Source of the DNA: Pseudohoeflea suaedae
GTDB lineage: Bacteria; Pseudomonadota; Alphaproteobacteria; Rhizobiales; Rhizobiaceae
Direction: 5' to 3'
Length of the DNA stretch: 64,000 nucleotides
Assembly (NCBI RefSeq): GCF_004354915.1
Contig: NZ_SMSI01000001.1
Span: 62,001 to 126,000 of the forward strand
The notes under the pieces were generated by a model. That model saw only the letters and a list, made by a program, of their open reading frames with translations. It made no database searches and was not told where the DNA came from. Shown here in pieces: positions 8,361 through 23,735 of the stretch. Both the position numbers and the translations under genes were made by a program. Position 1 is the first letter of the stretch. Every line of letters begins with the position of its first letter.

Positions 8361-9287
8361 TCAGGCCGATACCGCCGCGAACACCAGGTCCCTGAGCTTG
8401 ATCGCCAGCGGATTGAGCGTGTGGTTCTTCAGCGAAATCAGATGATAGGCGTGAAGGATGATCGGCTCGTCGAGATCGATCGTCGAGAGGTCGCTCACCT
8501 CCTGCCGGCCGGCCAGAAGATCCACCACCTCGCGTGAGGTCGGCGCAATCGCATCCGTCGAATTGAGGTAGGCGATCATCACCAGAAGCGAGGTCGTGTT
8601 GACGATTTCCCGCGGGAGCGGCACCTGCGCATTGACGAAGGCATCCTCGACGGCCTGCCGCATCGGCATCAGCGGTGCCTGCACCACCCATTCATATCCC
8701 TCGAGGTCGCGGATCGAGAGCCCCGATGCGCCTGCCATCGGATGACTGGCCCGACACATGAAGCGGATCACCTCGACACGGCCTCGACGCACGTTGAACT
8801 GCCGCGCATCGACGCCGGGCGGGATGCGTGACAGCACGAAGTCGTAGTCGCCGCGCAAAAGCCCCTCGATCAGCGCCTGGCTCGGCGCGACATCGACATG
8901 GATATCGGCGCCGACCGCCTCCTGCTTGAGCTTCTGGATCGCCGGCACCACGAAGGCGACCGCTCCGCCGGTCACGGAGCCGACCCGCACGGAGCCCGCG
9001 CGTCCGGATCGGATCTCCTCGACCTCGTGGACCGCCCTTTCGAGCTCCTGCAGCAGCGTGGCCGCATTGCGCACGAGGACCTGCCCGACAGCCGTGGGGG
9101 TCATCCCCTTCGGATGGCGATCGAAGACCCGCGTTCCCACCGCCTTCTCGATGGCTGCCAGCATCCGCGAGGCCGCCGGCTGGGTGATCGCCAGCTGCTC
9201 GGCAGCCAATGCCAGCTGCCCCGTCCGCTCGATTGCGTGGATCAACCTGAAATCCTTGAGTTGCAGACGCGCGATGAGCTTTTCCAT
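8361..9287 (-). CDS. gbpR: LysR-type regulator of the chvE-ggu locus (GbpR type)
   Basis: A 308-residue LysR protein: N-terminal HTH (about 8-67, AAEQLAITQPAASRMLAAIE) and C-terminal substrate domain (about 95-300). It lies divergent from chvE, the position of gbpR (galactose-binding protein regulator) in Agrobacterium. GbpR is known there to activate chvE in response to arabinose, galactose and similar sugars. Its stop is only 5 bases from that of the convergent GntR gene. A small palindrome over its start codon (9286-9298) is a candidate autoregulatory site. Confidence 0.85.
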   Translation of the reverse strand: MEKLIARLQLKDFRLIHAIERTGQLALAAEQLAITQPAASRMLAAIEKAVGTRVFDRHPKGMTPTAVGQVLVRNAATLLQELERAVHEVEEIRSGRAGSVRVGSVTGGAVAFVVPAIQKLKQEAVGADIHVDVAPSQALIEGLLRGDYDFVLSRIPPGVDARQFNVRRGRVEVIRFMCRASHPMAGASGLSIRDLEGYEWVVQAPLMPMRQAVEDAFVNAQVPLPREIVNTTSLLVMIAYLNSTDAIAPTSREVVDLLAGRQEVSDLSTIDLDEPIILHAYHLISLKNHTLNPLAIKLRDLVFAAVSA

Positions 9288-9298
9288 AAGCTGCTTAT
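9286..9298. promoter_or_regulatory. Palindrome over the gbpR start, possible LysR site
   Basis: ATAAG-CTG-CTTAT is a perfect 5-3-5 inverted repeat that covers the gbpR start codon and faces the chvE promoter region. LysR proteins bind short dyads of this kind, usually TN11A. The assignment rests on symmetry and location in the divergent region. Confidence 0.35.
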
Positions 9299-9439
9299 CA
9301 ATTTTGGTATGCCAGTTGTCAATTTAATCATTTGCCGGACATCTTGGCCATTGGCTAGGAGTCTTGCTGGATCAGGAGGTCCACAGGGGCAGGTCCGGCG
9401 CGTCGCCGGATCGCCGAAACCACCGGGAGGTATTTACCC

Positions 9440-10507
9440 ATGAGGAAACTCGTTTCCGCCATGGCGGCGCTTGCGCTTACCGCAGGTCTCGCCACCGCAC
9501 CGTCTTTCGCCCAGGACAAGGGCTCGATCGGCATCGCCATGCCGACGAAGTCTTCGGCACGCTGGATTTCGGACGGCGAGTCGATGGTCAAGCAGTTCCA
9601 GGAAGCCGGCTACGATGCCGACCTTCAATACGCTGAAGACGACATTCCGAACCAGCTCGCCCAGATCGAGAACATGATCACCAAGGGTGTCGACGTTCTC
9701 GTCATCGCGGCGATCGACGGCACGACGCTGTCCAACGCTCTGGAAAATGCTGCGGCTTCCGGCATCAAGGTCATCGCCTACGACCGCCTGATCCGCGATA
9801 GCGAAAACGTCGATTATTACGCCACCTTCGACAACTTCAAGGTCGGCGTGCAGCAGGCCACTTCGCTCGTGAACGGCCTGAAGGAGCGCTTCCCGGACGA
9901 GGAAAGCTGGAACGTCGAGCTCTTCGGCGGCTCGCCGGACGACAACAATGCCTACTTCTTCTATGACGGCGCCATGAGCGTTCTTCAGCCGATGATCGAC
10001 GAAGGCAAGATCAACGTCGTCTCCGGCCAGACCGGCATGGACAAGGTCGGCACCCTTCGTTGGGACGGCGCGGTGGCGCAGGCCCGCATGGACAACCTTC
10101 TTTCGGCCAACTACACCGACAAGCAGATCCACGGCGTTCTGTCGCCGTATGACGGCCTGTCGATCGGCATCCTCTCCTCGCTCAAGGGCGTGGGCTACGG
10201 TTCCGGCGACATGAAGATGCCGATCGTGAGCGGTCAGGACGCCGAAGTGCCGTCCGTCAAGTCGATCCTGGCGGACGAACAGTATTCGACCGTCTTCAAG
10301 GACACTCGTGAGCTGGCCCGCGTGACCGTCGGCATGGTCGACGCCCTCCTCGGCGGAGGCGAGCCGGAAATCAACGACACCGAGACCTACGACAACGGTG
10401 TGAAGGTTGTTCCGTCCTACCTGCTGGAGCCGGTTTCGGTCGACAAGAGCAACTACAAGGAAATCCTGATCGACAGCGGTTACTACACCGAAGACCAGAT
10501 CAAGTAG
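9440..10507 (+). CDS. chvE: Periplasmic multiple-sugar-binding protein ChvE
   Basis: A 355-residue protein with a clean signal peptide of about 25 residues (ending in PSFAQ) and a type-I binding fold. [39 protein letters not shown] and [14 protein letters not shown] match ChvE/XylF-type proteins. ChvE binds arabinose, galactose, glucose and other aldoses, and in Agrobacterium also feeds the VirA sensor. No vir gene is visible here, so an import role is the safe call. CGGGAGG precedes the ATG. It is followed by a hairpin and gguA. Confidence 0.9.
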
Positions 10508-10525
10508 GAATTTCCTTGCCGACAC

Positions 10526-10555
10526 TCCGTTTCGCCGGAACACCGGCGGAACGGA
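10526..10555 (+). other. Intergenic hairpin after chvE
   Basis: A 13-base stem with one T/G wobble (TCCGTTTCGCCGG against CCGGCGGAACGGA) and a 4-base AACA loop lies 19 bases after the chvE stop. No T-run follows. As with the hairpin after ytfQ, it likely stabilises the binding-protein part of the transcript or partly attenuates gguA. Confidence 0.55.
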
Positions 10556-10623
10556 TCCCGACCTGCGCGTAACGATCCGCTGCGGTCAGACAGAAAATCC
10601 CGAAAAGAATTCCGAGAACCACC

Positions 10624-12138
10624 ATGGCCACACTTCTCGAAATGCGTCAGATCACCAAGGAGTTTCCGGGCGTCAAGGCGCTGGACCGGGTCGATCTCAA
10701 GGTCGAGGAAGGCGAGATCCACGCGATCTGCGGCGAGAACGGCGCCGGCAAGTCGACGCTGATGAAGGTTCTCTCCGGCGTCTACCCGGCTGGCAGCTAT
10801 GACGGCGAGATCGTCTATGAGGGCGAGACGGCCCAATTCCGCGACATACGCGACAGCGAAGACCGCGGCATCATCATCATTCACCAGGAACTGGCGCTCG
10901 TCCCGCAGCTCTCGATCGCCGAGAACATCTTCCTCGGCAACGAGCGCGCCACCCGCGGCGTCATCGACTGGCGCATGACCAACCGGCGCACCGAGGAACT
11001 GCTCGAGAAGGTCGGCCTGAGCGAAGCGCCCACGACGCTCGTCGATTCCATCGGCGTCGGCAAACAGCAGCTCGTCGAGATCGCCAAGGCGCTGTCCAAG
11101 AACGTCAAGCTGCTCATCCTCGACGAGCCGACCGCCGCCCTGCAGGAAAACGACAGCCGCAAGCTTCTCGATCTGCTGCTGGAGCTCAAGGCCCAGGGCG
11201 TCACCTCGATCCTCATCTCGCACAAGCTCGGCGAAGTCCGCTACGTCGCCGACACCGTGACCGTGATCCGCGACGGCACCACCGTCTCGACACTCGACGC
11301 CAAGGGCCTGAGCGAAGACCAGATCGTTCACGACATGGTCGGCCGCGACATGACCAACCGGTTCCCCGAGCACAAGCGCACGCCGGGCGACATCCTGATG
11401 GAGGTCGACGACTGGACTGTCTGGCATCCCGAGCATGTCGACCGCCGCGTCATCAGGAACGCCGGTTTCAACGTGCGCGCCGGCGAAGTGGTGGGCATTG
11501 CCGGATTGATGGGCTCGGGTCGCACCGAACTCGCCATGTCGATCTTCGGCAAGTCCTACGGCCGCAACATTTCCGGCTCGGTCAGGCTCAAGGGCGAGGC
11601 CGTCGACGTCTCGACCGTATCCAAGGCGATCGCCGCCGGCATTTCCTACGTCACCGAGGACCGCAAGTCGCTGGGTCTCGTCCTCGACGAGACGATCCGT
11701 TTCAACACCACTCTCGCCAATCTTGAGGGTGTCTCGAGCAACGGCGTACTCAAACGCAACGAGGAAACCCGGGTAGCCGAGCGCTATCGCGAGGCGCTCG
11801 CCACGCGCACGCCCTCGGTCTTCCAGAAGGTGGTCAATCTCTCCGGCGGCAACCAGCAGAAGGTGGTTCTCGCCAAGTGGCTGTTCACCTCGCCCGAGGT
11901 GCTCATTCTCGACGAACCGACACGCGGTATCGATGTCGGCGCGAAATACGAAATCTACACCATCATCAACGACCTCGCCGCACAGGGTAAGGGCGTCGTC
12001 ATGATCTCCTCGGAGATGCCGGAACTTCTCGGCATGTGCGACAGGATCTACGTCATGAACGAAGGCGCGCTTGTGGGTGAACTGACGGCTGCAGAAGCCA
12101 GCCAGGAGCGCATCATGTCGCTCATCGTCAACGACTAG
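10624..12138 (+). CDS. gguA: Sugar ABC transporter ATP-binding protein GguA
   Basis: A 504-residue double ATPase of the CUT2 class. Walker [10 protein letters not shown] is at about 37-45 and the first Walker B is [12 protein letters not shown]. The second domain has [30 protein letters not shown] and [13 protein letters not shown]. It matches the XylG/GguA group and sits directly between chvE and gguB as in Agrobacterium. It energises uptake of sugars delivered by ChvE. Confidence 0.9.
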
Positions 12139-12150
12139 GAGGATACGCTA

Positions 12151-13395
12151 ATGGCCGTGGCTGATAGCGAACAGAACGAAGGTACGGAACACAACGGCAA
12201 GGGCATCGGCGCCTACCTCGCCTCCCACCTGCGCGAATACGGGCTGCTTCTGGCACTCATCGTGATCATGGTGTTTTTCCAGGTCGTGACCGAGGGAACG
12301 CTTCTGCGCGCGGTCAACGTCACCAACCTGCTCCTCCAGAACAGCTACATCGTCATCATGGCGCTGGGCATGCTCGTCGTTATCGTCTCGGGCAATATCG
12401 ACCTCTCGGTCGGTTCGGTGATGGGGTTCATCGGCGCGCTGGCTGCCGTGATGATCGTCAATTTCGACCAGAACATCTACGTCACCATCATCGCCTGCCT
12501 GGCCGTGGGTGGACTGATCGGCGCGGCGCAGGGCTATTGGGTCGCCTATTGGCGCATCCCCTCCTTCATCGTGACGCTCGCCGGCATGCTGGTCTTCCGA
12601 GGCCTGTCGCTCTGGCTTCTCGAAGGCCAGTCGGTCGGCCCCTTCCCGCGTGAGTTCCAGATCATCGCCAACGGCTTCGTGCCCGATATCTTTCCCGCCG
12701 GTATCGGTGAGATGCTGGCCGGCATGTTCGATGCCCGCAAGGTCAACGTCCTGGCTCTCGTCGCCGGCATCGTGACCGCCGCGCTCATCGTCTGGATGGG
12801 CATGCGCCAGCGCGCCCGCAACAAGGCCTACGGCATCGAGGATGAGCCGGCATCCTTCTTTGCGGCACGCAACTTCATCGTCGCCGCTGCGCTCATCTTC
12901 ATCACCTTCAAGCTGTCGACCTTCCGCGGCCTGCCCAACGTGCTCATCACCATGGCGGTGCTGACGGTGATCTACGCCTTCCTCACCTCCTCGACGGTGA
13001 TCGGACGGCGCGTCTACGCGCTCGGCGGCAACCAGAAGGCGGCCAAGCTCTCCGGTATCAACACCGAAAGGCTGACGTTCCTCGCCTTCACCAATATGGG
13101 CGTTCTGGCAGCCGCCGCGGGCCTGGTCTTCGCCGCCCGCCTCAACACCGCGACCCCGAAAGCCGGTTTCGCGCTCGAACTCGACGTCATCGCTGCCGTC
13201 TTCATCGGCGGCGCCTCGATGTCCGGCGGTGTCGGAACCATCATCGGCGCGGTCGTCGGCGCGTTCCTCATGGGTGTGCTCAACAACGGCATGTCGATCA
13301 TGGGTATCGGCATCGACTACCAGCAGATGATCAAGGGCCTGGTGCTGCTCGCCGCCGTGATCTTCGACGTCTACAACAAGCAGAAACAGGGATGA
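12151..13395 (+). CDS. gguB: Sugar ABC transporter permease GguB
   Basis: A 414-residue membrane protein of the CUT2 permease family, longer than the Ytf permeases as is usual for XylH/GguB. Marks are MALGMLVVIVSGNIDLSVGS, PSFIVTLAGMLVFRGLSLWL and ELDVIAAVFIGGASMSGGVG. AGGAGG-like AGGAGGAT lies before the ATG. gguC, which follows gguB in Agrobacterium, is missing here. The catabolic genes begin 50 bases downstream. Confidence 0.9.
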   Translation: MAVADSEQNEGTEHNGKGIGAYLASHLREYGLLLALIVIMVFFQVVTEGTLLRAVNVTNLLLQNSYIVIMALGMLVVIVSGNIDLSVGSVMGFIGALAAVMIVNFDQNIYVTIIACLAVGGLIGAAQGYWVAYWRIPSFIVTLAGMLVFRGLSLWLLEGQSVGPFPREFQIIANGFVPDIFPAGIGEMLAGMFDARKVNVLALVAGIVTAALIVWMGMRQRARNKAYGIEDEPASFFAARNFIVAAALIFITFKLSTFRGLPNVLITMAVLTVIYAFLTSSTVIGRRVYALGGNQKAAKLSGINTERLTFLAFTNMGVLAAAAGLVFAARLNTATPKAGFALELDVIAAVFIGGASMSGGVGTIIGAVVGAFLMGVLNNGMSIMGIGIDYQQMIKGLVLLAAVIFDVYNKQKQG

Positions 13396-13445
13396 GATGC
13401 CGCCGCCCGGCGCTTCCGGGCGGCACGCTCAAAGGAGTTCGAACC

Positions 13446-15188
13446 ATGACCTTCAAACCGGCCCAATGGCCCCGCCGCCTGCGCTCGCAGGAATGGTTCG
13501 GCGGAACCGGGCGCGACCAGATCTACCATCGCGGCTGGATGAAGAACCAGGGCTTCCCGCACGACCTCTTCGACGGTCGGCCGGTGATCGGCATTCTCAA
13601 CACCTGGTCCGAACTGACGCCGTGCAACGCGCATCTCGACGTGCTCGCCGAGCGCGTCAAGCACGGCATCTACGAAGCCGGCGGCTTCCCGGTCGAAGTG
13701 CCGGTCTTCTCGGCGGCCGAAAGCTCTTTCCGCCCGACCGCTATGATGTTCCGCAATCTCGCCGCCATGGCGGTCGAGGAAGCCATTCGCGGCCAGCCGA
13801 TGGACGGCTGCGTCCTGCTCGTGGGCTGCGACAAGACCACCCCGAGCCTGCTGATGGGCGCGGCCTCCTGCGACCTTCCCTCGATCGTCGTCACCGGCGG
13901 CCCGATGCTCAACGGGCATTTCCGCGGCCAGCGCGTTGGATCCGGCACCCATCTGTGGAAGTTCTCCGAGGCCGTGAAGGCGGGCGAGATGACCCAGGAC
14001 GACTTCCTCGAGGCCGAGGCCGGCATGTCGCGTTCGCCCGGCAGCTGCAACACGATGGGCACCGCCTCCTCGATGGCGTCGATGGTCGAGTCCCTTGGCA
14101 TGGCGCTGTCCGGCAATGCCGCGATCCCGGCCGTCGACAGCCGCCGCCGCGTGATGGCGCAGCTTTCCGGTCGCCGCATCGTGCAGATGGTCAAGGACGA
14201 CCTCAAGCCGTCCGACGTGTTGACCAAGGCAGCCTTCGAAAACGCCATCCGCTCCAACGGCGCGATCGGCGGCTCGACCAACGCCGTCGTCCACCTGCTG
14301 GCGATTGCCGGCCGCGTCGGCGTCGATCTCACGCTCGATGACTGGGACCGTTGCGGACGCGACGTCGCCACCATCGTCAACCTGATGCCGTCGGGCGAAT
14401 ACCTGATGGAGGAATTCTTCTATGCCGGCGGCCTGCCCGTCGTGCTGCGTCACCTGGGCGAGAGCGGCCTTCTGAACAAGGACGCACTGACCGTCTCCGG
14501 CGGCCCGATCTGGGACGAGGTCAAGGACGCGATCAACCACAACGAGGACGTCATCCGTCCGGTCGACAAGGCGCTGACCCATCAGGGCGGCATCGCGGTG
14601 CTGAAGGGCAACCTTGCTCCCAAGGGCGCGATCCTGAAGCCGTCCGCGGCCTCCGAGCACCTGATGAAGCATCGCGGCCGCGCCGTGGTCTTCGAGGACA
14701 TCGACGACTACAAGGCCAAGATCAACGACGACGCGCTCGACATCGACGAGACCTGCGTCATGGTGCTCAAGAACTGCGGCCCGAAGGGCTATCCCGGCAT
14801 GGCCGAAGTCGGCAATATGGGCCTGCCGCCCAAGGTGCTCAAACGCGGCATCACCGACATGGTCCGTATTTCCGACGCCCGCATGTCCGGCACCGCTTAC
14901 GGCACCGTCATCCTGCACACCTCGCCGGAAGCAGCGGTCGGCGGCCCCCTGGCGGTCGTCCGGAATGGCGACATGATCGAGCTCGACGTGGCCGCCCGCA
15001 CGCTTCATCTGGACATCTCGGACGAAGAAATGGCCTCGCGCCTGGCCGAATGGAAGCCCCAGGGCGAACAGGCCGAATCCGGCTATCCGTGGCTTCACCA
15101 CCAGTATGTCGAGGGCGCAGATACCGGCGCCGACCTCTCCTTCCTCAAGGGCTGCCGCGGCGCCCCGGTCGGCAAGGATTCGCATTGA
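13446..15188 (+). CDS. IlvD/Edd-family sugar acid dehydratase (L-arabinonate / D-galactonate type)
   Basis: A 580-residue protein close to the experimentally studied L-arabinonate dehydratase of Rhizobium leguminosarum, a [2Fe-2S], Mg-dependent IlvD/Edd enzyme. It removes water from L-arabinonate to give L-2-keto-3-deoxyarabonate, and such enzymes also act on D-galactonate and D-fuconate. Cluster cysteines are expected in TPCNAHL, VGCDKTTP and SPGSCNTMGT. The ATG at 13446 follows AAAGGAG. An in-frame upstream ATG at 13392 has no such site. It starts the catabolic part of the operon and its stop overlaps the next start (TGATG). The double substrate range fits the two branches downstream. Confidence 0.85.
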   Translation: MTFKPAQWPRRLRSQEWFGGTGRDQIYHRGWMKNQGFPHDLFDGRPVIGILNTWSELTPCNAHLDVLAERVKHGIYEAGGFPVEVPVFSAAESSFRPTAMMFRNLAAMAVEEAIRGQPMDGCVLLVGCDKTTPSLLMGAASCDLPSIVVTGGPMLNGHFRGQRVGSGTHLWKFSEAVKAGEMTQDDFLEAEAGMSRSPGSCNTMGTASSMASMVESLGMALSGNAAIPAVDSRRRVMAQLSGRRIVQMVKDDLKPSDVLTKAAFENAIRSNGAIGGSTNAVVHLLAIAGRVGVDLTLDDWDRCGRDVATIVNLMPSGEYLMEEFFYAGGLPVVLRHLGESGLLNKDALTVSGGPIWDEVKDAINHNEDVIRPVDKALTHQGGIAVLKGNLAPKGAILKPSAASEHLMKHRGRAVVFEDIDDYKAKINDDALDIDETCVMVLKNCGPKGYPGMAEVGNMGLPPKVLKRGITDMVRISDARMSGTAYGTVILHTSPEAAVGGPLAVVRNGDMIELDVAARTLHLDISDEEMASRLAEWKPQGEQAESGYPWLHHQYVEGADTGADLSFLKGCRGAPVGKDSH

Positions 15189-16120
15189 TGGCATGGAAGA
15201 TCGCTCTGGCGGGCATCGGCAAGATCGCCCGCGACCAGCACGTTCCCTCGATCGCCGCGTCGCGTGACTTCGATCTCGCTGCCACCGTCACGCGGCACGA
15301 AGGCGTGGACGGTGTCGAGAACCATGCCGATATCGAAGCCATGCTCGCGGCGCGTCCGGATATCGAGGTCGTCTCGCTGTGCCTGCCGCCCGTCCCGCGC
15401 TTCGAATATGCCGCGGCTGCCATCAAGGCCGGCCGTCATGTCATGCTCGAAAAGCCGCCGGGCGCGACGCTCGCGGAATGCCATGCGCTGGAAGCCATGG
15501 CGCGCAACGCCGGCGTCTCGATCTATGCCACATGGCACTCGCGTGAAGCCGCAAGCGTGGAAGCGGCGCGAAACTGGCTTGCCGACAAGCGGCTCAAGAG
15601 TCTGAAGATCACCTGGCTCGAGGATGTCCGGCGCTGGCATCCGGGACAGGAGTGGATCTGGGAGCCCGGCGGCCTCGGGGTTTTCGATCCCGGTATCAAC
15701 GCCCTGTCGATCCTGACCCGCATCCTGCCGACGCCGGTTCACCTGGCCGGGGCAACGCTGAAATTTCCGGAGAACCGCCAGACGCCGATCGCGGCCGATC
15801 TTGCCTTCCGCCATCCTGACGGCGCAGAGGTGAGTGCGGTCTTCGATTGGCGCAAGGAAGGCGACCAGTTCTGGAACATCGAGGCGGAAACCGACCGGGG
15901 CACGATGGAGCTTTCCGATGGCGGCGCCAACCTGTCGATCGACGGAGCGATGGTCGAGGCCTCGGATGTCGCGCTCGAAGGCGAGTACCCGAACCTTTAC
16001 ATGCGCATGGCCGAGATCTTGCGGACGGGCGGGATCGACATGGACCTTTCTCCGATGGTTCACGTCGCCGACGCCTTCCTGCTCGGCAAGCGCGAAATCG
16101 TCGCCCCCTTCCACGAGTGA
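15188..16120 (+). CDS. D-galactose/L-arabinose 1-dehydrogenase (Gfo/Idh/MocA family)
   Basis: A 310-residue NAD(P)-dependent oxidoreductase. The Rossmann stretch GIGKIARDQHVPSI is at 10-22, the family motif is EKPP at 88-91, and the conserved block is WLEDVRRWHPGQEWIWEPGGLGVFDPGINAL. The last is highly similar to Pseudomonas fluorescens D-galactose dehydrogenase, which oxidises D-galactose and L-arabinose at C1 to lactones. The ATG at 15188 overlaps the dehydratase stop. It supplies the substrate of the lactonase encoded at 19667. Confidence 0.87.
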   Translation: MAWKIALAGIGKIARDQHVPSIAASRDFDLAATVTRHEGVDGVENHADIEAMLAARPDIEVVSLCLPPVPRFEYAAAAIKAGRHVMLEKPPGATLAECHALEAMARNAGVSIYATWHSREAASVEAARNWLADKRLKSLKITWLEDVRRWHPGQEWIWEPGGLGVFDPGINALSILTRILPTPVHLAGATLKFPENRQTPIAADLAFRHPDGAEVSAVFDWRKEGDQFWNIEAETDRGTMELSDGGANLSIDGAMVEASDVALEGEYPNLYMRMAEILRTGGIDMDLSPMVHVADAFLLGKREIVAPFHE

Positions 16121-16127
16121 GGCCGAT

Positions 16128-17066
16128 GTGACCGCTTCGACCACATCACATGCGCTGGACTGGATCGCCGTGGACTGGGGTACGACCTCACTGCGCGCCT
16201 GGGCCGTTGCGGCCGATGGCTCGGTGATCGCCCAGGCCAGCTCGGACAAGGGAATGGGCAAGATCGGCAGGGCCGATTACGAACCCGCTCTTCTCGAACT
16301 CGTCGGACCATGGATCGAAGGTGCGAGCGGTTCGATCCCGGTCATCGTCTGCGGGATGGCGGGCGCACGCCAGGGCTGGAAGGAAGCCGCCTACCGCAGC
16401 GTACCTTGCCAGCCGGTCGCGGGCGAAGCGCTCACTCCGGTGGAAACCGCCGACAGGCGCCTCACCGTCGGGATCGTTCCCGGCCTGTGCCAGGCAAAGC
16501 CGGAAGATGTCATGCGCGGCGAGGAAACCCAGCTCGCGGGCCTCCTGGCCGGCAGGGCCATCGAGGACGCCTCCGTCTGTCTTCCCGGGACCCACAGCAA
16601 ATGGGTCAGTATCGACGCGGGCCGGGTGGCGCGGTTCACCACCGTCATGACCGGCGAACTCTTCGCCCTGATCGGAGGTCAGTCGATCCTGCGCCATTCT
16701 GTCGGCGGAAGCGGCGACCGCGAGCCCGGACCGGGCTTCCTCGATGCTGTCGATCAGGCAATCGCCGATCCGGCGAGCCTTACATCCAGCCTCTTTTCGA
16801 TCCGCGCCCGCTCGCTGCTTGCCGAGGCAAGCCCGGAGGATGGCAGCGACATACTCTCCGGCCTGCTGATCGGAACAGAAATCGCAGCCTGCCGGCCATA
16901 CTGGCAGGATCGCCCGGTTCACCTGATCGGTGCCGGACCGCTGGTGGCGCGATATGCCGCCGCACTGCAGAGAGCCGGTGCCCGGACCATTGTCGAAGAC
17001 GGCTCCGGCCTGACGCTCGCCGGTCTCGCCAGGGTCCGCGCCGGAATGAAGGAAATTGCCGCATGA
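16128..17066 (+). CDS. dgoK: 2-dehydro-3-deoxygalactonokinase
   Basis: A 312-residue sugar kinase of the DgoK family, with the N-terminal phosphate-binding stretch DWGTTSLRAW, the block GMAGARQGWKEAAY, and GTHSKWV near the middle. It phosphorylates 2-keto-3-deoxygalactonate with ATP. The start is GTG at 16128, preceded by GTGAGG. An ATG two bases upstream is out of frame. Its stop overlaps the aldolase start by 4 bases, so kinase and aldolase are translationally coupled. Confidence 0.88.
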   Translation: MTASTTSHALDWIAVDWGTTSLRAWAVAADGSVIAQASSDKGMGKIGRADYEPALLELVGPWIEGASGSIPVIVCGMAGARQGWKEAAYRSVPCQPVAGEALTPVETADRRLTVGIVPGLCQAKPEDVMRGEETQLAGLLAGRAIEDASVCLPGTHSKWVSIDAGRVARFTTVMTGELFALIGGQSILRHSVGGSGDREPGPGFLDAVDQAIADPASLTSSLFSIRARSLLAEASPEDGSDILSGLLIGTEIAACRPYWQDRPVHLIGAGPLVARYAAALQRAGARTIVEDGSGLTLAGLARVRAGMKEIAA

Positions 17067-17668
17067 CCCGAAAACTCGTTGCCATCCTGCGCGGCATCAA
17101 ACCCGAGGACGTCGAGGAGATCGGCGCAGCACTGATCGACGCCGGCATTACCCTTATCGAGGTACCGCTCAATTCGCCCGAACCCTTCGACAGTATCGGA
17201 AGGCTCGCCGCCCGTTTCGGCGACAAAGCGATGATCGGAGCCGGAACGGTCCTGACCACAGGCGATGTCGACCGCATTCTCGATGTCGGCGGCAAGCTGG
17301 TGGTCTCTCCCAATTGCGATCCGGCGGTGATCTCCCATACGCTCGAAAGGGGAATGATCTCGATGCCCGGCGTTTTCACCGCCACCGAGTGCTTCCAGGC
17401 GATCGCAGCCGGCGCACGCACGCTCAAGCTCTTCCCTGGCTCCATGGCCGGCCCGGAAGGATTGAAGGCGCTGAAAGCGGTGATGCCGTCCGATGTCGAG
17501 CTTTATGCTGTCGGCGGCGCAGCCCCCGACAATCTCACCGAATGGGTTGCCGCCGGTGCAGCCGGTTTCGGTATCGGCTCCTATCTCTTCAAGCCGGGAA
17601 TGACCGCCCCTGACGTCGCCTCCCGTGCCGCCAGGATGGTGGCTGCCTATGACGAGGCAATGCGATGA
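17063..17668 (+). CDS. dgoA: 2-dehydro-3-deoxy-6-phosphogalactonate aldolase
   Basis: A 201-residue class I aldolase of the KDPG/KDPGal family. The catalytic Glu33 lies in LIEVPLNSP and the Schiff-base Lys122 in TLKLFPGS. It splits the kinase product into pyruvate and glyceraldehyde 3-phosphate. The LNSP and LFPGS variants are those of the galactonate rather than the gluconate enzymes. ATGA overlaps tie it to dgoK upstream and galM downstream. Confidence 0.88.
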   Translation: MTRKLVAILRGIKPEDVEEIGAALIDAGITLIEVPLNSPEPFDSIGRLAARFGDKAMIGAGTVLTTGDVDRILDVGGKLVVSPNCDPAVISHTLERGMISMPGVFTATECFQAIAAGARTLKLFPGSMAGPEGLKALKAVMPSDVELYAVGGAAPDNLTEWVAAGAAGFGIGSYLFKPGMTAPDVASRAARMVAAYDEAMR

Positions 17669-18690
17669 GCGACGCTGGAGACGTTGAAATCTTCGGTCAT
17701 GCGCAGGACGGGACGCCGGTCGGGAAAGTCACGATTGCCGCAGGTGGCGCGGAAGCCACGCTGATCAGCTGGGGCGCGAGCCTGCAGGATTTCCGCATCT
17801 CCGGCATCGATCATCCGCTGGTTCTCGGCAGCCCGGCGCTCGAACCCTATTTCGACGATATGCGCTATTACGGCGCGATTGCCGGACGGGTCGCCAACCG
17901 GATCGCCAACGGGACCGCCGAACTCGACGGGACGACATGCCGCTTCGATCGCAACGAGAATGGAACAACCACGCTCCACGGCGGATCGGACGGAAGCTCC
18001 AATCTCGTCTGGACCATCGCCGATCATGGTGCGTCCCATTGCCGGTTTACCCTGCAAATGGCGGACGGGCTTGCCGGTTTTCCCGGCAAGCTCGACGTCG
18101 CCGTCACCTATTCGCTGAGCGATGGCGGCACGCTGCGCATCGAGATCGAGGCCCGGACCGACGCGCCGACCTTCTGCAATTTCGCCCATCATTCCTACTG
18201 GAACCTCGACGGAACGGCGAATCTCGAGAACCACAGATTGATGGTTCACGCCGACCGCTATCTCGCCGTCGACGAGCGCCTGATCCCCACCGGTTCTCCG
18301 CGGCCGGTCGACGGCACGCGTTTCGATCTGCGCGAGCCGCAACCGGTGATCCAGCCCGGGACCGAGGCTGTCGATCACAATTTCTGCTGCTTCGACGCAC
18401 CGTCCCGGGAACTGCGCAAACTCGCCGTCCTTTCGACGCCCGATCTGTCGCTGCATGTCGCGTCCACCGAGCCGGGCTTTCAGGTCTATGACGGCGCGCG
18501 CATGAATACCGCGCCGGTTCCCGGCCTCACCGGCGAACCCTACGGCCCCTATGCCGGCATTGCACTCGAACCCCAACGCTGGCCCGATGCGCCCAATCGC
18601 CCCGATTACCCGACCGTGGTCCTGAGACCCGGCGAGACCTATCGGCAGGTGTCGGAATTCCGCATTGCCAGAAACGCACAAGGCTCCTGA
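17665..18690 (+). CDS. galM: Aldose 1-epimerase
   Basis: A 341-residue mutarotase with AGRVANRIANG, the catalytic His176 in NFAHHSYWNLDG and the catalytic Glu in GIALEPQRWPDA. It interconverts alpha and beta anomers of imported sugars so that the 1-dehydrogenase gets its preferred anomer. The start overlaps the dgoA stop (ATGA). Its place within the operon, next to both pyranose and furanose importers, fits that task. Confidence 0.87.
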   Translation: MSDAGDVEIFGHAQDGTPVGKVTIAAGGAEATLISWGASLQDFRISGIDHPLVLGSPALEPYFDDMRYYGAIAGRVANRIANGTAELDGTTCRFDRNENGTTTLHGGSDGSSNLVWTIADHGASHCRFTLQMADGLAGFPGKLDVAVTYSLSDGGTLRIEIEARTDAPTFCNFAHHSYWNLDGTANLENHRLMVHADRYLAVDERLIPTGSPRPVDGTRFDLREPQPVIQPGTEAVDHNFCCFDAPSRELRKLAVLSTPDLSLHVASTEPGFQVYDGARMNTAPVPGLTGEPYGPYAGIALEPQRWPDAPNRPDYPTVVLRPGETYRQVSEFRIARNAQGS

Positions 18691-18701
18691 AAGGAACTTC
18701 G

Positions 18702-19619
18702 ATGAAACACCCCCTCACCGGCATCCTGCCCGTCGCACCGACACCTTTCCACGACGATGGCCGCGTTGACGAGGACGGCATGCGCCGGGTCATCGACTGC
18801 ATGATCGACCAGGGTGTCGACGCGATCTGCATCCTGGCGAACTATTCCGAACAGTTCGTGCTCTCCGATGACGAACGCGCGCTCCTGATGAAGATCAGCC
18901 TCGAGCATGCCGCAGGTCGCGTGCCGATGATCGTCACCATCAGCCATTTCTCGACCGATATTGTCGTCCGGCGCGCCAGGGATGCCGCGGCGCTCGGCGC
19001 CGCCATGGTGATGATGATGCCGCCCTATCACGGCGTCGGCCTGGTTCCCGCCCCGACCGGGATCTACGAGCAGTTCAAGGCCGTCAGCGACGCCATCTCC
19101 ATCCCGATCATGGTTCAGGACGCACCGCTGTCCGGCGCACCGCTGCCGGTGGATCTGCTCTGCAGGATGGCCCGTGAGATCGAGAACGTTTCCTACTTCA
19201 AGATCGAGGTGCCTTTCGCGGCCGACAAGCTCTCAGCCCTCATCGAGCAGGGCGGGAAGGACATCGTCGGTCCGTTTGACGGCGAGGAAGCCGTCACCCT
19301 GCTCGCGGATCTCGATGCAGGCGCCACCGGCACCATGACTTCGGCCATGTTCCCCGACAAGATCAAGCCGATCGTCACCGAATATCTGGCCGGCAACCAC
19401 GACGCGGCGCTCGATCACTGGAAGCTCTGCATGCCGCTGATCAACCACGAGAACCGCCAGTGCGGCCTGCGCGCTGCCAAGACCGTGATGAAGGAAGGCG
19501 GCGTCATCAGGAGCGATTTCGTGCGTCACCCGCTCAAGCCGATGTCCGAGCGCACCAAGGCGCGACTGCTCGGCCTGGCAGGTGAACTCGACGTGCTTGC
19601 GCTGAAGTGGGGTAAGTGA
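18702..19619 (+). CDS. L-2-keto-3-deoxyarabonate dehydratase (DapA family)
   Basis: A 305-residue protein of the DHDPS/NAL superfamily with the Schiff-base Lys167 in YFKIEVP. CILANYSEQF, IPIMVQDAPLSG, GPFDGEEAVTLLADL and LINHENRQ match the Azospirillum brasilense enzyme that converts L-2-keto-3-deoxyarabonate to 2-oxoglutarate semialdehyde. The usual aldolase Tyr region (YNxP) is replaced by VQDAP, as in that dehydratase group. It commits the arabinose branch. A GAAAGGAA ribosome site precedes the ATG. Confidence 0.86.
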   Translation: MKHPLTGILPVAPTPFHDDGRVDEDGMRRVIDCMIDQGVDAICILANYSEQFVLSDDERALLMKISLEHAAGRVPMIVTISHFSTDIVVRRARDAAALGAAMVMMMPPYHGVGLVPAPTGIYEQFKAVSDAISIPIMVQDAPLSGAPLPVDLLCRMAREIENVSYFKIEVPFAADKLSALIEQGGKDIVGPFDGEEAVTLLADLDAGATGTMTSAMFPDKIKPIVTEYLAGNHDAALDHWKLCMPLINHENRQCGLRAAKTVMKEGGVIRSDFVRHPLKPMSERTKARLLGLAGELDVLALKWGK

Positions 19620-19666
19620 ACCACTTCTGGCGGAAATTCACCTCGGACAGAGGAGGAGTCGACCCG

Positions 19667-20581
19667 GTGAAGAAGATTGCGACAAGTGCCGAGAAACTGG
19701 GGACACATCGCTGCCAACTCGGTGAAGGCCCCTTTTACGATCGCCGGACCGACACGGCCTGGTGGTTCGACATCGTCGGCCACAAGCTCCTCGAACACCG
19801 TTTCGGCGGCGGCGACACCATCGCCCATGAACTTCCGGTCATGGGCTCCGTCATCGCGCCCGTCGATGAGAACCGTCAGCTTCTCGCAATGGAGGACGGG
19901 CTCTATCTGCGCGAGATCGCGACCGGTTCGCTCAAGCGTATCAAGGCGCTCGAGGACGACAAGCCGGGCAACCGGTCCAATGACGGCCGGCTCCACCCAT
20001 CGGGCCGCCTCTGGCTGGGCACCATGGGCAAGAATGCCGAGTGGCAGGCAGGCACCATCTACCTCTTCGACGGCACGGAGATCACACCGCTCTTCCGCAA
20101 GGTGACGATCCCCAACTCGATCTGTTTCTCGCCGGACGGGCGTACCGGCTATTTTGCCGACACCGCGCCCAACATCGTCTGGCGCGTGGCGCTCGACCCG
20201 CAGACGGCGGTGCCGATCGGCGAGCCCGAAGTCTTTCTCACCGAGGCCCAGCTTCCCCTTGGCGGCCACTACGACGGATCGGTGATGGATGCCGACGGCG
20301 TTCTCTGGAATGCCGCCTGGGGCGGCGGATCGGTGACCGGCTTCGCGCCCGACCGGTCGATCGTCAGGACGGTCGAAATTCCGGCAGCGCAGACGAGTTG
20401 CCCCTGTTTCGTCGGCCCCGGGCTCGACCGCATGCTGGTGACGTCCGCCTGGGACGGATATTCTGAATCGGAGCGGAACGCCGACCCCGGCGCGGGCTTT
20501 ACCTATATGATAGACGGCAGCTTCAATGGCACCGATACGGTCGCCGCCATCATCGACGAATCCATCCTGAACGGGAACTGA
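19667..20581 (+). CDS. Sugar lactonase, SMP-30/gluconolactonase family
   Basis: A 304-residue six-bladed propeller protein. CQLGEGPFYD holds the metal-binding Glu, and KPGNRSNDGRLHPSGRLWLGTMG and DGSVMDADGVLWNAAW hold the conserved Asn/Asp ligands. It should hydrolyse L-arabino- and D-galactono-lactone made by the 1-dehydrogenase. The GTG at 19667 is preferred because AGGAGG lies 10 bases before it. A GTG at 19616 overlapping the previous stop would add 17 residues without a ribosome site. Confidence 0.84.
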   Translation: MKKIATSAEKLGTHRCQLGEGPFYDRRTDTAWWFDIVGHKLLEHRFGGGDTIAHELPVMGSVIAPVDENRQLLAMEDGLYLREIATGSLKRIKALEDDKPGNRSNDGRLHPSGRLWLGTMGKNAEWQAGTIYLFDGTEITPLFRKVTIPNSICFSPDGRTGYFADTAPNIVWRVALDPQTAVPIGEPEVFLTEAQLPLGGHYDGSVMDADGVLWNAAWGGGSVTGFAPDRSIVRTVEIPAAQTSCPCFVGPGLDRMLVTSAWDGYSESERNADPGAGFTYMIDGSFNGTDTVAAIIDESILNGN

Positions 20582-20593
20582 CAAGGAGCCTTC

Positions 20594-22099
20594 ATGCTCA
20601 CCGGACAACATCTGATCGCCGGCGAATGGTCCGGCGGTAGCGACACATTTGCCTCGAGCCCCGCCCACGGCGATACGCACCACTTCGCGATCGGCACGGC
20701 GGCGGACGTCGACAAGGCGGTGAAGGCCGCGGAAGACGCCTTCTGGTCCTACGGCTATTCGAGCCGCAGGGAACGCGCGGCCTTTCTCGAGGCGATTGCC
20801 GACGAGATCGAGGCCCGCGGCGAGGAAATCACCGCGATCGGCACTTCCGAAACCGGCCTGCCGGAAGCGCGTCTGCAGGGCGAGCGCGGCCGCACCACCG
20901 GCCAGCTGCGCCTTTTCGCAAGCCATATCCTGAAGGGCGATTATCTCGACCGCCGTCATGACGAGGCGCTGCCCGAGCGTGCGCCGCTGCCGCGTCCGGA
21001 CCTGCGCATGATCGAACGCCCGATCGGTCCCGTGGCGGTCTTCGGTGCATCGAACTTTCCGCTCGCCTTCTCCACCGCAGGCGGCGACACGGCATCGGCG
21101 CTCGCGGCCGGCTGCCCGGTCGTCGTCAAGGGTCACCCGGCTCATCCGGGGACCGGCGAGATCGTGGCGCAGGCCATCGCCGCGGCGATACGGAAAACCG
21201 GCATGCATCCGGGCGTCTTTTCGCTCATCCAGTCGAACGGTATCGAGGTCGGCCAGGCGCTCGTCCAGCATCCGCTGATCAAGGCCGTCGGCTTCACCGG
21301 TTCGCTCGGCGCCGGCCGGGCGCTCTTCGACCTCTGCGCCGCCCGCGACGAGCCGATCCCCTTTTTCGGCGAGCTGGGTTCGGTGAACCCGATGTTCCTG
21401 CTGCCCGAAGCCATGAAGGCGCGCGGCATCGAGATCGCCAAGGGCTGGGCCGGTTCGCTGACCATGGGCGCCGGACAGTTCTGCACCAATCCCGGCATTG
21501 CCGTGGTGCAGGAAGGCGCGGATGCCGATTCGTTTGCCGAACAGGCGACCGCCTCCCTCAAGGAGGTCAACGCCCAGACCATGCTGACCGACGGTATCGC
21601 CTCGTCCTACCGCAAGGGTGTCGAGCGTGTGTCGGGCGAAACCGGGGTGCGTGAACTCCTCACCTCGACCTGCGATCTGCGCAATGCCTCTCCCTATCTC
21701 TATCAGGTCTCGGGAGATGACTGGACGGCCAACCACGTTCTGGCCGAGGAGGTCTTCGGGCCCATGGGCATCATCGTCACCGCACGGGACGCGGCTCAGG
21801 TCGAAGCGATCGCCAGATCGCTCGAGGGGCAGCTGACCTGCACCATCCACATGGATGAGGCAGACACCGAGGCGGCGAAGAAGCTCGTCCCTGTGCTCGA
21901 ACGCAAGGCCGCCCGCATTCTCGTCAACGGGTTCCCGACAGGCGTCGAAGTCGCCGACGCCATGGTCCATGGCGGCCCCTACCCGGCCTCGACCAATTTC
22001 GGTCACACCTCGGTCGGCACGCTCGCCATCCGACGCTTCCTGCGGCCGGTATGCTACCAGAACATGCCCGACGCATTGCTGCCGGAAGACCTTCGATAA
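20594..22099 (+). CDS. 2-oxoglutarate semialdehyde dehydrogenase (aldehyde dehydrogenase family)
   Basis: A 501-residue aldehyde dehydrogenase with the nucleophile Cys297 in GAGQFCTNPG and the general-base Glu in FFGELGSVNP. The sequence is of the type III 2-oxoglutarate-semialdehyde dehydrogenase group (GASNFPLAFSTAGGDTASALAAG). It oxidises the product of the deoxyarabonate dehydratase to 2-oxoglutarate, which enters the TCA cycle. It is the last gene of the operon and is followed by a strong terminator. Confidence 0.86.
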   Translation: MLTGQHLIAGEWSGGSDTFASSPAHGDTHHFAIGTAADVDKAVKAAEDAFWSYGYSSRRERAAFLEAIADEIEARGEEITAIGTSETGLPEARLQGERGRTTGQLRLFASHILKGDYLDRRHDEALPERAPLPRPDLRMIERPIGPVAVFGASNFPLAFSTAGGDTASALAAGCPVVVKGHPAHPGTGEIVAQAIAAAIRKTGMHPGVFSLIQSNGIEVGQALVQHPLIKAVGFTGSLGAGRALFDLCAARDEPIPFFGELGSVNPMFLLPEAMKARGIEIAKGWAGSLTMGAGQFCTNPGIAVVQEGADADSFAEQATASLKEVNAQTMLTDGIASSYRKGVERVSGETGVRELLTSTCDLRNASPYLYQVSGDDWTANHVLAEEVFGPMGIIVTARDAAQVEAIARSLEGQLTCTIHMDEADTEAAKKLVPVLERKAARILVNGFPTGVEVADAMVHGGPYPASTNFGHTSVGTLAIRRFLRPVCYQNMPDALLPEDLR

Positions 22100-22117
22100 A
22101 CGAGCCGGCCTCACATG

Positions 22118-22158
22118 AAAAAGCCGCGCTCCTGTTCAGGGAGCGCGGCTTTCTTTTG
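22118..22158. terminator. Strong bidirectional Rho-independent terminator
   Basis: A perfect 13-base stem (AAAGCCGCGCTCC with GGAGCGCGGCTTT, 7-base loop) is followed on the plus strand by CTTTTG and flanked on the other side by an A-run that reads as T on the minus strand. It separates the convergent ends of the sugar operon and the gabD-like gene. Confidence 0.9.
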
Positions 22159-22174
22159 CGTGTGCGGCCGGGCG

Positions 22175-23626
22175 TCAGACGCTCATGCAGAGATATTTGA
22201 TCTCGAGAAAGTCCTCGATGCCGTATTTCGAGCCTTCGCGACCGAGGCCCGACGACTTGATGCCGCCGAAGGGCGCTTCGGCGGTCGAGACCAGCCCGGT
22301 GTTGATGCCCACCATGCCGCTTTCGATCTCCTCGGCGACCTTCCAGACCGTGGAGATGTCGCGCGCATAGAAATAGGCGGCGAGACCGAACTCGGTGTCG
22401 TTGGCGAGCGCGATACCCTCGTCGATCGTGTCGAAGGTGATGATCGGCGCCACCGGTCCGAAGGTTTCCTCCGACAGGACCTTCATGCCCTTGGTCACGC
22501 CGCTCAGGACCGTCGGCTGGAAATAGGTGCCGCCAAGTTCCGAGCGCTTGCCGCCGGTCATGACCTTCGCACCCTTGCTGACGGCGTCGGAGACATGATC
22601 CTCGACCTTCTCGACGCCGGCCTCGTCGATCAGCGGGCCGATCTGCACCCCGTCATCCATGCCGTTGCCGACCTTGAGCCCGGCGGTTGCCGCAGCGAGC
22701 TTCTCCGCAAAGGCTTCCGACACGCCGCTCTGCACGTAGATGCGGTTGGCGCAGACGCAGGTCTGGCCCGAATTGCGGAACTTGGCGATCATCGCGCCTT
22801 CCACCGCGGCATCGAGATCGGCGTCGTCGAAGACCAGGAACGGCGCATTGCCGCCGAGTTCCAGCGACAGCTTCTTGATGTCGTGGGCGCACTGCTTCAT
22901 CAGGATGCGGCCCACTTCGGTCGAGCCGGTGAAGGTGAGCTTGCGCACCTTCGGGTTCGAGCACATCTCGCCGCCGATACCGCGCGAATCCGTGCCGGGG
23001 ATCATCGACAGAACGCCCTTGGGGACGCCGGCACGTTCGGCGAGAACCGCCATGGCGATCGCCGAGAGCGGCGTTTCCTTGGCCGGACGCGCCACAAAGG
23101 TGCAGCCCGAGGCGAGCGCCGGCGCGACCTTGCGGGCAATCATCGCATTGGGGAAGTTCCATGGCGTGATCGAGGCCACCACCCCGATCGGCTGCTTGAT
23201 GACGACGATGCGCTTGTCGGCCTGGTGGCCGGGGATCACATCGCCATAGACGCGCCGGGCCTCCTCGGCGAACCACTGGATGAAGGAGGCGCCATAGGCA
23301 ATCTCGCCCTTGGCTTCCGCCAGCGGCTTGCCCATTTCGGCAGTCAGGATCCTGCCGAGATCCTCCTGGTTCTCCAGAAGCAGGTCGTTCCACTTGAGAA
23401 GGATCGCGCAGCGCTCCTTGGCGGTCTTCCTGCGCCATTCCTTCTGCGCCTCATAGGCGATTTCGATCGCCTTCTTCGTGTCCTCGGCGGTCAGGTCGGC
23501 CACGTCGGCGATCTTCTCGCCGGTCGCCGGGTTGAGGACCTCGAAGGTCTTCTTGCCCCTGGTCCATTCGCCGCCCAGAAGGCCGCGGGTCTCGAGCAGG
23601 GAGGGATCGGAAAGTTTCAGTGTCAT
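22175..23626 (-). CDS. gabD: NADP-dependent succinate-semialdehyde dehydrogenase
   Basis: A 483-residue aldehyde dehydrogenase, the same length as E. coli GabD. The catalytic Cys is in NSGQTCVCANR and the Glu in LELGGNAPFLVFDDADLD. TPWNFPNAMIARK and PFGGIKSSGLGREGSKYG are GabD-type blocks. The second Cys two residues after the nucleophile is the redox-switch pair seen in GabD. ATG at 23626 has GAAAGG 7 bases upstream. An in-frame ATG at 23641 overlaps that site and lacks its own. It is divergent from an IclR regulator. Glutarate or other semialdehydes are possible substrates as well. Confidence 0.84.
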   Translation of the reverse strand: MTLKLSDPSLLETRGLLGGEWTRGKKTFEVLNPATGEKIADVADLTAEDTKKAIEIAYEAQKEWRRKTAKERCAILLKWNDLLLENQEDLGRILTAEMGKPLAEAKGEIAYGASFIQWFAEEARRVYGDVIPGHQADKRIVVIKQPIGVVASITPWNFPNAMIARKVAPALASGCTFVARPAKETPLSAIAMAVLAERAGVPKGVLSMIPGTDSRGIGGEMCSNPKVRKLTFTGSTEVGRILMKQCAHDIKKLSLELGGNAPFLVFDDADLDAAVEGAMIAKFRNSGQTCVCANRIYVQSGVSEAFAEKLAAATAGLKVGNGMDDGVQIGPLIDEAGVEKVEDHVSDAVSKGAKVMTGGKRSELGGTYFQPTVLSGVTKGMKVLSEETFGPVAPIITFDTIDEGIALANDTEFGLAAYFYARDISTVWKVAEEIESGMVGINTGLVSTAEAPFGGIKSSGLGREGSKYGIEDFLEIKYLCMSV

Positions 23627-23735
23627 GGGGAGGCCTTTCATCGCGCCGGGCCTGAACGGCCGCGGACATCCTGTCGGAGGGGAACCACGCCTTCGGAAAA
23701 CCGGCCTTGATCCATGGCCAGAACCCTGATACTTG

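Follow-up and report, generated by a model that had tools for sequence, protein, structure and literature searches.

In Agrobacterium, chvE-gguABC (also named chvE-mmsAB-araD1) forms an operon accompanied by gbpR. In the work of Zhao and Binns from 2011, deletion of gguC reportedly affects only growth on L-arabinose. For Roseobacter litoralis, a combined route possibly serving both galactose and arabinose was proposed in 2011 (PMC3141670). Here we describe a locus in a window of 64,000 nucleotides, the whole stretch that we analyzed, from the alphaproteobacterium Pseudohoeflea suaedae (contig NZ_SMSI01000001.1, positions 62,001 to 126,000), in which chvE, gguA, and gguB are followed by eight metabolic genes. 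We consider it very probable, judging from the sequence, that this is one sugar-catabolic operon for L-arabinose and D-galactose, with a shared front end, two exits, and probably a divergent GbpR-like LysR protein that acts at one operator. We found no paper treating such a joint operon as one unit in the open-license literature, outside which most subscription journals lie, and this absence means little. The gene set is genuine and well formed and can be read in functional terms; its kind is ordinary, with comparable sets in many related bacteria.

The first-pass annotation had placed eight genes in a set order at 13446 to 22099, and we confirmed that set and that order by sequence, family, and PDB matches. 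All are on the + strand, with chvE-gguA-gguB directly 5′, and the whole set spans 9440 to 22099. The first of the eight (13446 to 15188, scanned from 13392) encodes an IlvD/EDD family protein, the putative L-arabinonate/D-galactonate dehydratase, which scored 927.8 bits against NF009559 (cut-off, 882). In the PDB it matched 5j83 (1,127 bits; 577 residues), 9evv, named "L-arabinonate dehydratase" (1,124 bits), and 7m3k, named "Galactonate dehydratase" (508 bits). The second (15188 to 16120) encodes a Gfo/Idh/MocA protein, the putative L-arabinose/D-galactose 1-dehydrogenase. An NCBIfam search at 1e-20 gave no match for it, and we named it from PDB matches to the D-galactose-1-dehydrogenase 4ew6 (390 bits) and to the L-arabinose 1-dehydrogenases 6jnj, 6jnk, and 7cgq (334 to 337 bits); the next best match scored 38.5 bits. 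These matches to solved enzymes of both sugars support the idea that the front end is shared, as does the finding that the dehydrogenase and dehydratase homologues of Rhizobium leguminosarum are active on both sugar series (PMC9795676). An L-arabinose dehydrogenase from Herbaspirillum has a 2.9-fold preference for L-arabinose over D-galactose (PMC6336799).

The two exits that had been proposed were also supported by sequence. The first consists of dgoK (16128 to 17066, with a GTG start), predicted to encode 2-keto-3-deoxygalactonokinase (Pfam DGOK, 320 bits; cut-off, 25; no NCBIfam match at 1e-20), and dgoA (17063 to 17668), predicted to encode 2-keto-3-deoxy-6-phosphogalactonate aldolase (NF006600, 288.6 bits; cut-off, 207). 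A long open reading frame starting at 16310 had pointed to fused dgoK and dgoA genes, a reading that we rejected because the two lie in different frames. A galM-like aldose 1-epimerase gene follows (17665 to 18690), with matches to TIGR02636 (223 bits; cut-off, 398) and PRK11055 (218 bits; cut-off, 240), both below the cut-off. The second exit consists of kdaD (18702 to 19619), for a putative L-2-keto-3-deoxyarabonate dehydratase of the DHDPS type (PDB 7c0c, 346 bits; 3fkk, 345 bits; next, 85.5 bits), and an aldehyde dehydrogenase gene (20594 to 22099; PDB 3v4c, 791 bits; 1eyy, 462 bits), whose product is probably, from its context, alpha-ketoglutaric semialdehyde dehydrogenase. Between these two lies the gene for an SMP-30 family lactonase (19667 to 20581), which matched Pfam SGL (218 bits) and PDB 2ghs (279 bits), both scanned from 19616, and had no NCBIfam match. 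We chose its GTG start at 19667 by eye over the GTG at 19616 because a GAGGAGG stretch lies before 19667. Upstream, the sugar-binding protein gene chvE (9440 to 10507), the transporter ATPase gene gguA, or mmsA (10624 to 12138), and the permease gene gguB, or mmsB (12151 to 13395), all on the + strand, exceeded the cut-offs of NF040907 (552.6 bits; cut-off, 460), NF040905 (869.1 bits; cut-off, 810), and NF040906 (567.9 bits; cut-off, 450), respectively.

Gene content, order, families, the one operator-like site, the terminator-like stem, and recurrence are observed directly; we infer the substrates of these proteins, their cotranscription, the inducer, and the way in which the products are sorted. 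According to this model, ChvE-GguAB would import L-arabinose, D-galactose, and probably D-fucose. GalM would interconvert the anomers, the dehydrogenase would oxidize C1 of L-arabinose or D-galactose, the SMP-30 protein would open the lactone, and the IlvD/EDD dehydratase would yield a 2-keto-3-deoxy acid. Chain length would then select between the exits. With its C6 hydroxyl, the hexose product would be phosphorylated by DgoK, and DgoA would cleave the result into pyruvate plus glyceraldehyde 3-phosphate. KdaD would dehydrate the pentose product to alpha-ketoglutaric semialdehyde, which would be oxidized to 2-oxoglutarate. The divergent GbpR-like LysR protein would probably control expression from a single operator.

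Searches of the genome, which we took as 99.86% complete, bear on this model. By sequence, homologues of all five enzymes of the nonphosphorylative L-arabinose pathway to 2-oxoglutarate are encoded, the lactonase and the aldehyde dehydrogenase at the family level only. Also encoded, for the De Ley-Doudoroff D-galactose pathway, are DgoK, DgoA, and homologues of galactose dehydrogenase and galactonate dehydratase. The whole genome gave no match to galactokinase (TIGR00131), to galactose-1-phosphate uridylyltransferase (PF01087), the two Leloir pathway enzymes that we looked for, or to L-arabinose isomerase (PF02610), and thus the usual Leloir and isomerase routes were not seen. The locus explains how an organism in which these three enzymes were not detected could use both sugars through a single regulator and a single uptake system.

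We next consider the control region. The LysR-type regulator gene (8361 to 9287, − strand; Pfam LysR_substrate and HTH_1) is divergent from chvE and occupies the position of gbpR. Between the two genes lies one operator-like palindrome, TATCAATTTTGGTATGC (9296 to 9312), whose inverted repeat follows the pattern TAYC-N6-GRTA. In a search of the whole genome allowing up to 3 mismatches, this site was the sole match, and a backwards control gave 0. A weight-matrix scan of the window scored it at 27.5 (20.1 for the reverse strand of the repeat), with the next best site at 8.7 (position 20496). That score proves little, because upstream regions like this one, with that of the window among them, went into the matrix; the genome scan is the fairer test. 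Palindrome-like sites occur at the same place in close relatives. They are not universal: with up to 4 mismatches, we found them in 38 of 76 upstream regions, namely, the window, 32 of 52 regions of the KdaD type, 5 of 19 of the GguC type, and 0 of 4 that had neither. In 74 of 100 loci with chvE-gguAB, there was a LysR homologue on the opposite strand. As a separate observation, LysR identity to the window protein tracks the dehydratase type (37 to 89% in 52 KdaD loci and 30 to 48% in 18 GguC loci), which may reflect relatedness only.

It is plausible, from the sequence features, that the whole set forms one transcript and a single regulatory unit for both sugars. The alternative is that there are two separately controlled units, one with the transporter and front end and another driven by an internal promoter before dgoK or kdaD, and the variable gene order among relatives, with blocks at different places, speaks for it. 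We consider this improbable. Gaps from gguB to the last gene are at most 50 nucleotides (nt), with overlaps of 1 to 4 nt at 15188, 17063 to 17066, and 17665 to 17668; the chvE-gguA gap is 116 nt (10508 to 10623). We found no second operator-like site within 3 mismatches. A consensus scan of 9200 to 22400 gave no + strand promoter-like match, a weak negative because the consensus covers one promoter type and may miss alphaproteobacterial promoters. We found 8 terminator-like sites in the region, against a mean of 7.8 in shuffled sequences, and a 14-pair intrinsic terminator-like stem on the + strand (22120 to 22152), between the operon and the convergent gene, was by far the longest. Three short terminator-like stems (5 to 7 pairs) lie on the + strand inside operon genes. 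The one palindrome, the one strong terminator-like stem, and the lack of an internal + strand promoter-like match favor a single unit and do not prove it. The chvE-gguA gap holds a G+C-rich inverted repeat, read by eye, which perhaps raises the level of the binding protein. We rejected the long open reading frame at 22115 to 23710 (+ strand) as a further operon gene: an aldehyde dehydrogenase gene lies antisense to it, at 22175 to 23641 (− strand), and our searches did not support it as a gene.

Several observations weigh against the joint operon as we read it. The LysR protein passes no NCBIfam equivalog cut-off, even if its family and divergent position both fit. KdaD, the aldehyde dehydrogenase, GalM, and the lactonase are all below, or without, any NCBIfam cut-off, and therefore their exact reactions rest on solved homologues and context. 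Elsewhere in the genome there are a second, lone DgoK (C1:1113263-1114114; L204), whose neighbors include c-di-GMP and acyl-CoA ligase genes with no match to the window DgoA nearby, and 2 further SMP-30 proteins. Among the 5 IlvD/EDD proteins of the genome, one at C15:318651-319589 (L003, L226), 46% identical to the window dehydratase and adjoining TRAP transporter genes, scored 1,104 bits against the NCBIfam L-arabinonate dehydratase model, versus 928 bits for the window enzyme. Because this paralogue scores higher, the substrate cannot be read from the family name alone, and we set that name aside as proof. Among related loci, L151, from the sample of the organism's own order, has two IlvD/EDD dehydratases in one cluster, of which one adjoins KdaD and the other sits between the dehydrogenase and a lactonase-dgoK-dgoA block, so a shared dehydratase is not the sole solution in nature. 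Finally, L080, L090, and L117 have the transporter and dehydrogenase with no such dehydratase adjoining.

The paralogous dehydratases have surroundings of their own. The one on C15 has TRAP transporter genes and a gene for an RraA-like aldolase as neighbors and probably belongs to a locus for both uptake and breakdown of a sugar acid. Another, at C16:339855-341825 (L004, L225), adjoins an SMP-30 gene and genes resembling a sugar ABC transporter and possibly belongs to an oxidative route, for example, for D-xylose.

To place the locus among its relatives, we used two samples. A scan of named genomes by dehydrogenase gave 585 confirmed stretches, of which the best 80, 19 of them with short flanks, are a sample of close relatives. 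From the organism's own order we took 297 genomes; 90 had the dehydrogenase at an E value of 1e-40 or better, and we fetched the loci of 88. Pooling gave 168 loci, or 165 after removal of duplicates. Dehydratase, dehydrogenase, DgoK, DgoA, KdaD, aldehyde dehydrogenase, and SMP-30 protein occurred together in 18 of the best 80 loci. DgoK (at least 30% identity) and DgoA lay near the dehydrogenase in 7 of the 88 own-order loci. In the pooled set, DgoK (at least 38%) and DgoA were present in 25 of 165 loci, and 24 of these also had a dehydratase homologue, KdaD or GguC, and an SMP-30 protein. We counted L158 among the 24 even if its dehydratase is 46% identical to that of the window. KdaD was present in 21 of the joined-set loci, 20 of which also had the aldehyde dehydrogenase. 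Because the set recurs in other genomes, its grouping is not due to chance. The earlier claim that the compact combination is noteworthy in its own right was not supported, given comparable sets in 18 of the best 80 of 585 and in 24 of 165 nonredundant loci.

This distribution bears on a second alternative: that the operon serves L-arabinose (or D-fucose), that dgoK-dgoA serve another hexonate or are passengers, and that galactose is mainly handled elsewhere. Consistently with this, dgoK-dgoA lie near the dehydrogenase in just those 25 of 165 loci, and they come and go. On a tree of 101 loci, their presence required at least 16 changes, compared with 21.7 on average and never fewer than 17 in 200 label shuffles, with gains and losses indistinguishable. 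The R. leguminosarum dehydratase is best on D-fuconate (PMC9795676), and the second DgoK also fits. We nevertheless judge it unlikely, and less credible than the two-unit alternative. The genome has no galactokinase or uridylyltransferase match, and the sole DgoA above the cut-off is in this operon, a second match in the genome being below it. In addition, DgoK was found in 88 of 90 own-order genomes with the dehydrogenase versus 68 of 207 without it, a comparison uncorrected for relatedness. Presence of dgoK-dgoA showed no signal of association with KdaD on the locus tree.

The joined sets occur in 11 gene orders. The order dehydrogenase-dgoK-dgoA-(galM)-kdaD-lactonase-aldehyde dehydrogenase was found only in the window, in a close relative whose dehydrogenase is 85% identical (L036), and in an Oricola sp. 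(L037, without galM) among the compared loci; in Oricola indica (L039), the order is that of the window without dgoK-dgoA and galM. That restricted order speaks for a pathway fusion that is unique to, or newly invented in, the window lineage. We regard this idea as scarcely credible and already contradicted by the recurrence: comparable functions are joined, in different orders, at 22 further loci, of which 18 have KdaD and the aldehyde dehydrogenase, and a combined route had been proposed for R. litoralis. In the window lineage dgoK-dgoA come right after the dehydrogenase; in most Rhodobacterales cases dgoK-dgoA and then the lactonase come after the aldehyde dehydrogenase. The lactonases after KdaD (6 loci) are 60 to 83% identical to the window protein, and those after DgoA (21 loci, mostly Rhodobacterales) are 35 to 44% identical; the window lactonase is of the type that sits beside KdaD, and its sharing between the two sugars, as in the first-pass annotation, is only putative. 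A tree of 46 DgoK and DgoA pairs placed the window, L036, and L037 in one supported group (98/94), with copies inside and outside such loci intermixed, and several genomes have a separate dgoK-dgoA-lactonase block at another place (L205, L206, L213, L217, and L222). The simplest reading of these sequences is that the window lineage had an arabinose set with its own lactonase that was joined by dgoK-dgoA after the dehydrogenase and that in the Rhodobacterales an arabinose set is accompanied by a dgoK-dgoA-lactonase block. In L151 and L158, KdaD, aldehyde dehydrogenase, dehydrogenase, SMP-30 protein, and dgoK-dgoA are all encoded upstream of chvE-gguAB, and L151 has one dehydratase per branch.

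The first-pass annotation had also stated that gguC is replaced here by the full set. We found no GguC/AraD1 match (NF040903) in the whole genome, and no gguC after gguB. The replacement by the full set did not hold up: most gguC loci also have the dehydratase and dehydrogenase, to which three of them (L058, L078, and L153) add dgoK-dgoA and a lactonase, and only KdaD is absent from every gguC locus. Among 100 nonredundant loci with chvE-gguAB (at least 45% identity), 22 had GguC only, 58 had KdaD only, 20 had neither, and 0 had both; among all 165, the numbers were 26, 65, 74, and 0. Of 9 gap proteins, the 4 that we scanned all matched NF040903 ("AraD1 family protein") with no Pfam match, and one GguC gap protein that we compared with the PDB had no match there. 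Because they are never together in the 100 transporter-bearing loci, one of GguC and KdaD probably stands in for the other, and we conclude, with caution, that the DHDPS-type KdaD takes the place of GguC in the arabinose branch. The arabinose-only growth effect of gguC deletion reportedly seen by Zhao and Binns agrees with this. A plain Fisher test of the exclusion gave a P value of 7e-11. The label changed at least 7 times on the locus tree, and 9 independent tree pairs gave about 4 opposite directions, 0 same directions, and about 5 without a difference (median P, 0.125; range, 0.03 to 0.25). The Fisher test is strong, but the independent-pairs test is weak, and we did not accept the exclusion as proof of equal function, which is inferred. 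The L-keto-deoxypentonate dehydratases treated in PMC7374468, in its accessible part, are all of the DHDPS family, which counts against GguC as a stand-in for KdaD.

We lean, by a small measure, toward a broader model in which LysR-ChvE-GguAB would be a plug-in chassis for sugars of arabinose or galactose configuration. The arabinose slot would be filled by GguC/AraD1 or KdaD, which have no common Pfam family, and never by both, and the dgoK-dgoA galactose module would have been gained or dropped repeatedly, at varying positions. Several sugars would thus share a single sensor, operator, and transporter, and chain length alone would sort the products. The locus offers a comparative case of an enzyme replaced by an unlike one, GguC versus a DHDPS-type dehydratase, and of repeated assembly of a joint operon. 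Because the general scheme was already known, the gain lies in detail.

We compared the locus with the closest known systems. As in Agrobacterium chvE-gguABC, the window ChvE, GguA, and GguB are above curated cut-offs, adjacent, and beside a LysR gene; unlike there, no GguC/AraD1 is encoded, and the metabolic genes follow gguB directly. Of the R. litoralis galactose/arabinose clusters 1 and 2 (PMC3141670), one likewise brings together gbpR, a binding protein, a transporter, an arabonate dehydratase, and a galactose dehydrogenase; dgoK and dgoA are there in a second cluster, however, and the authors could not assign the other Azospirillum pathway proteins. The nonphosphorylative L-arabinose pathway of Azospirillum brasilense resembles the window in that the window dehydrogenase matches 6jnj and KdaD matches 3fkk, both Azospirillum proteins, whereas the window also has dgoK-dgoA, an exit for galactose. 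Rhodobacterales loci such as L044, L053, and L059 have comparable functions in one run with chvE-gguAB; unlike the window, they carry them in the order kdaD, aldehyde dehydrogenase, dgoK, dgoA, lactonase.

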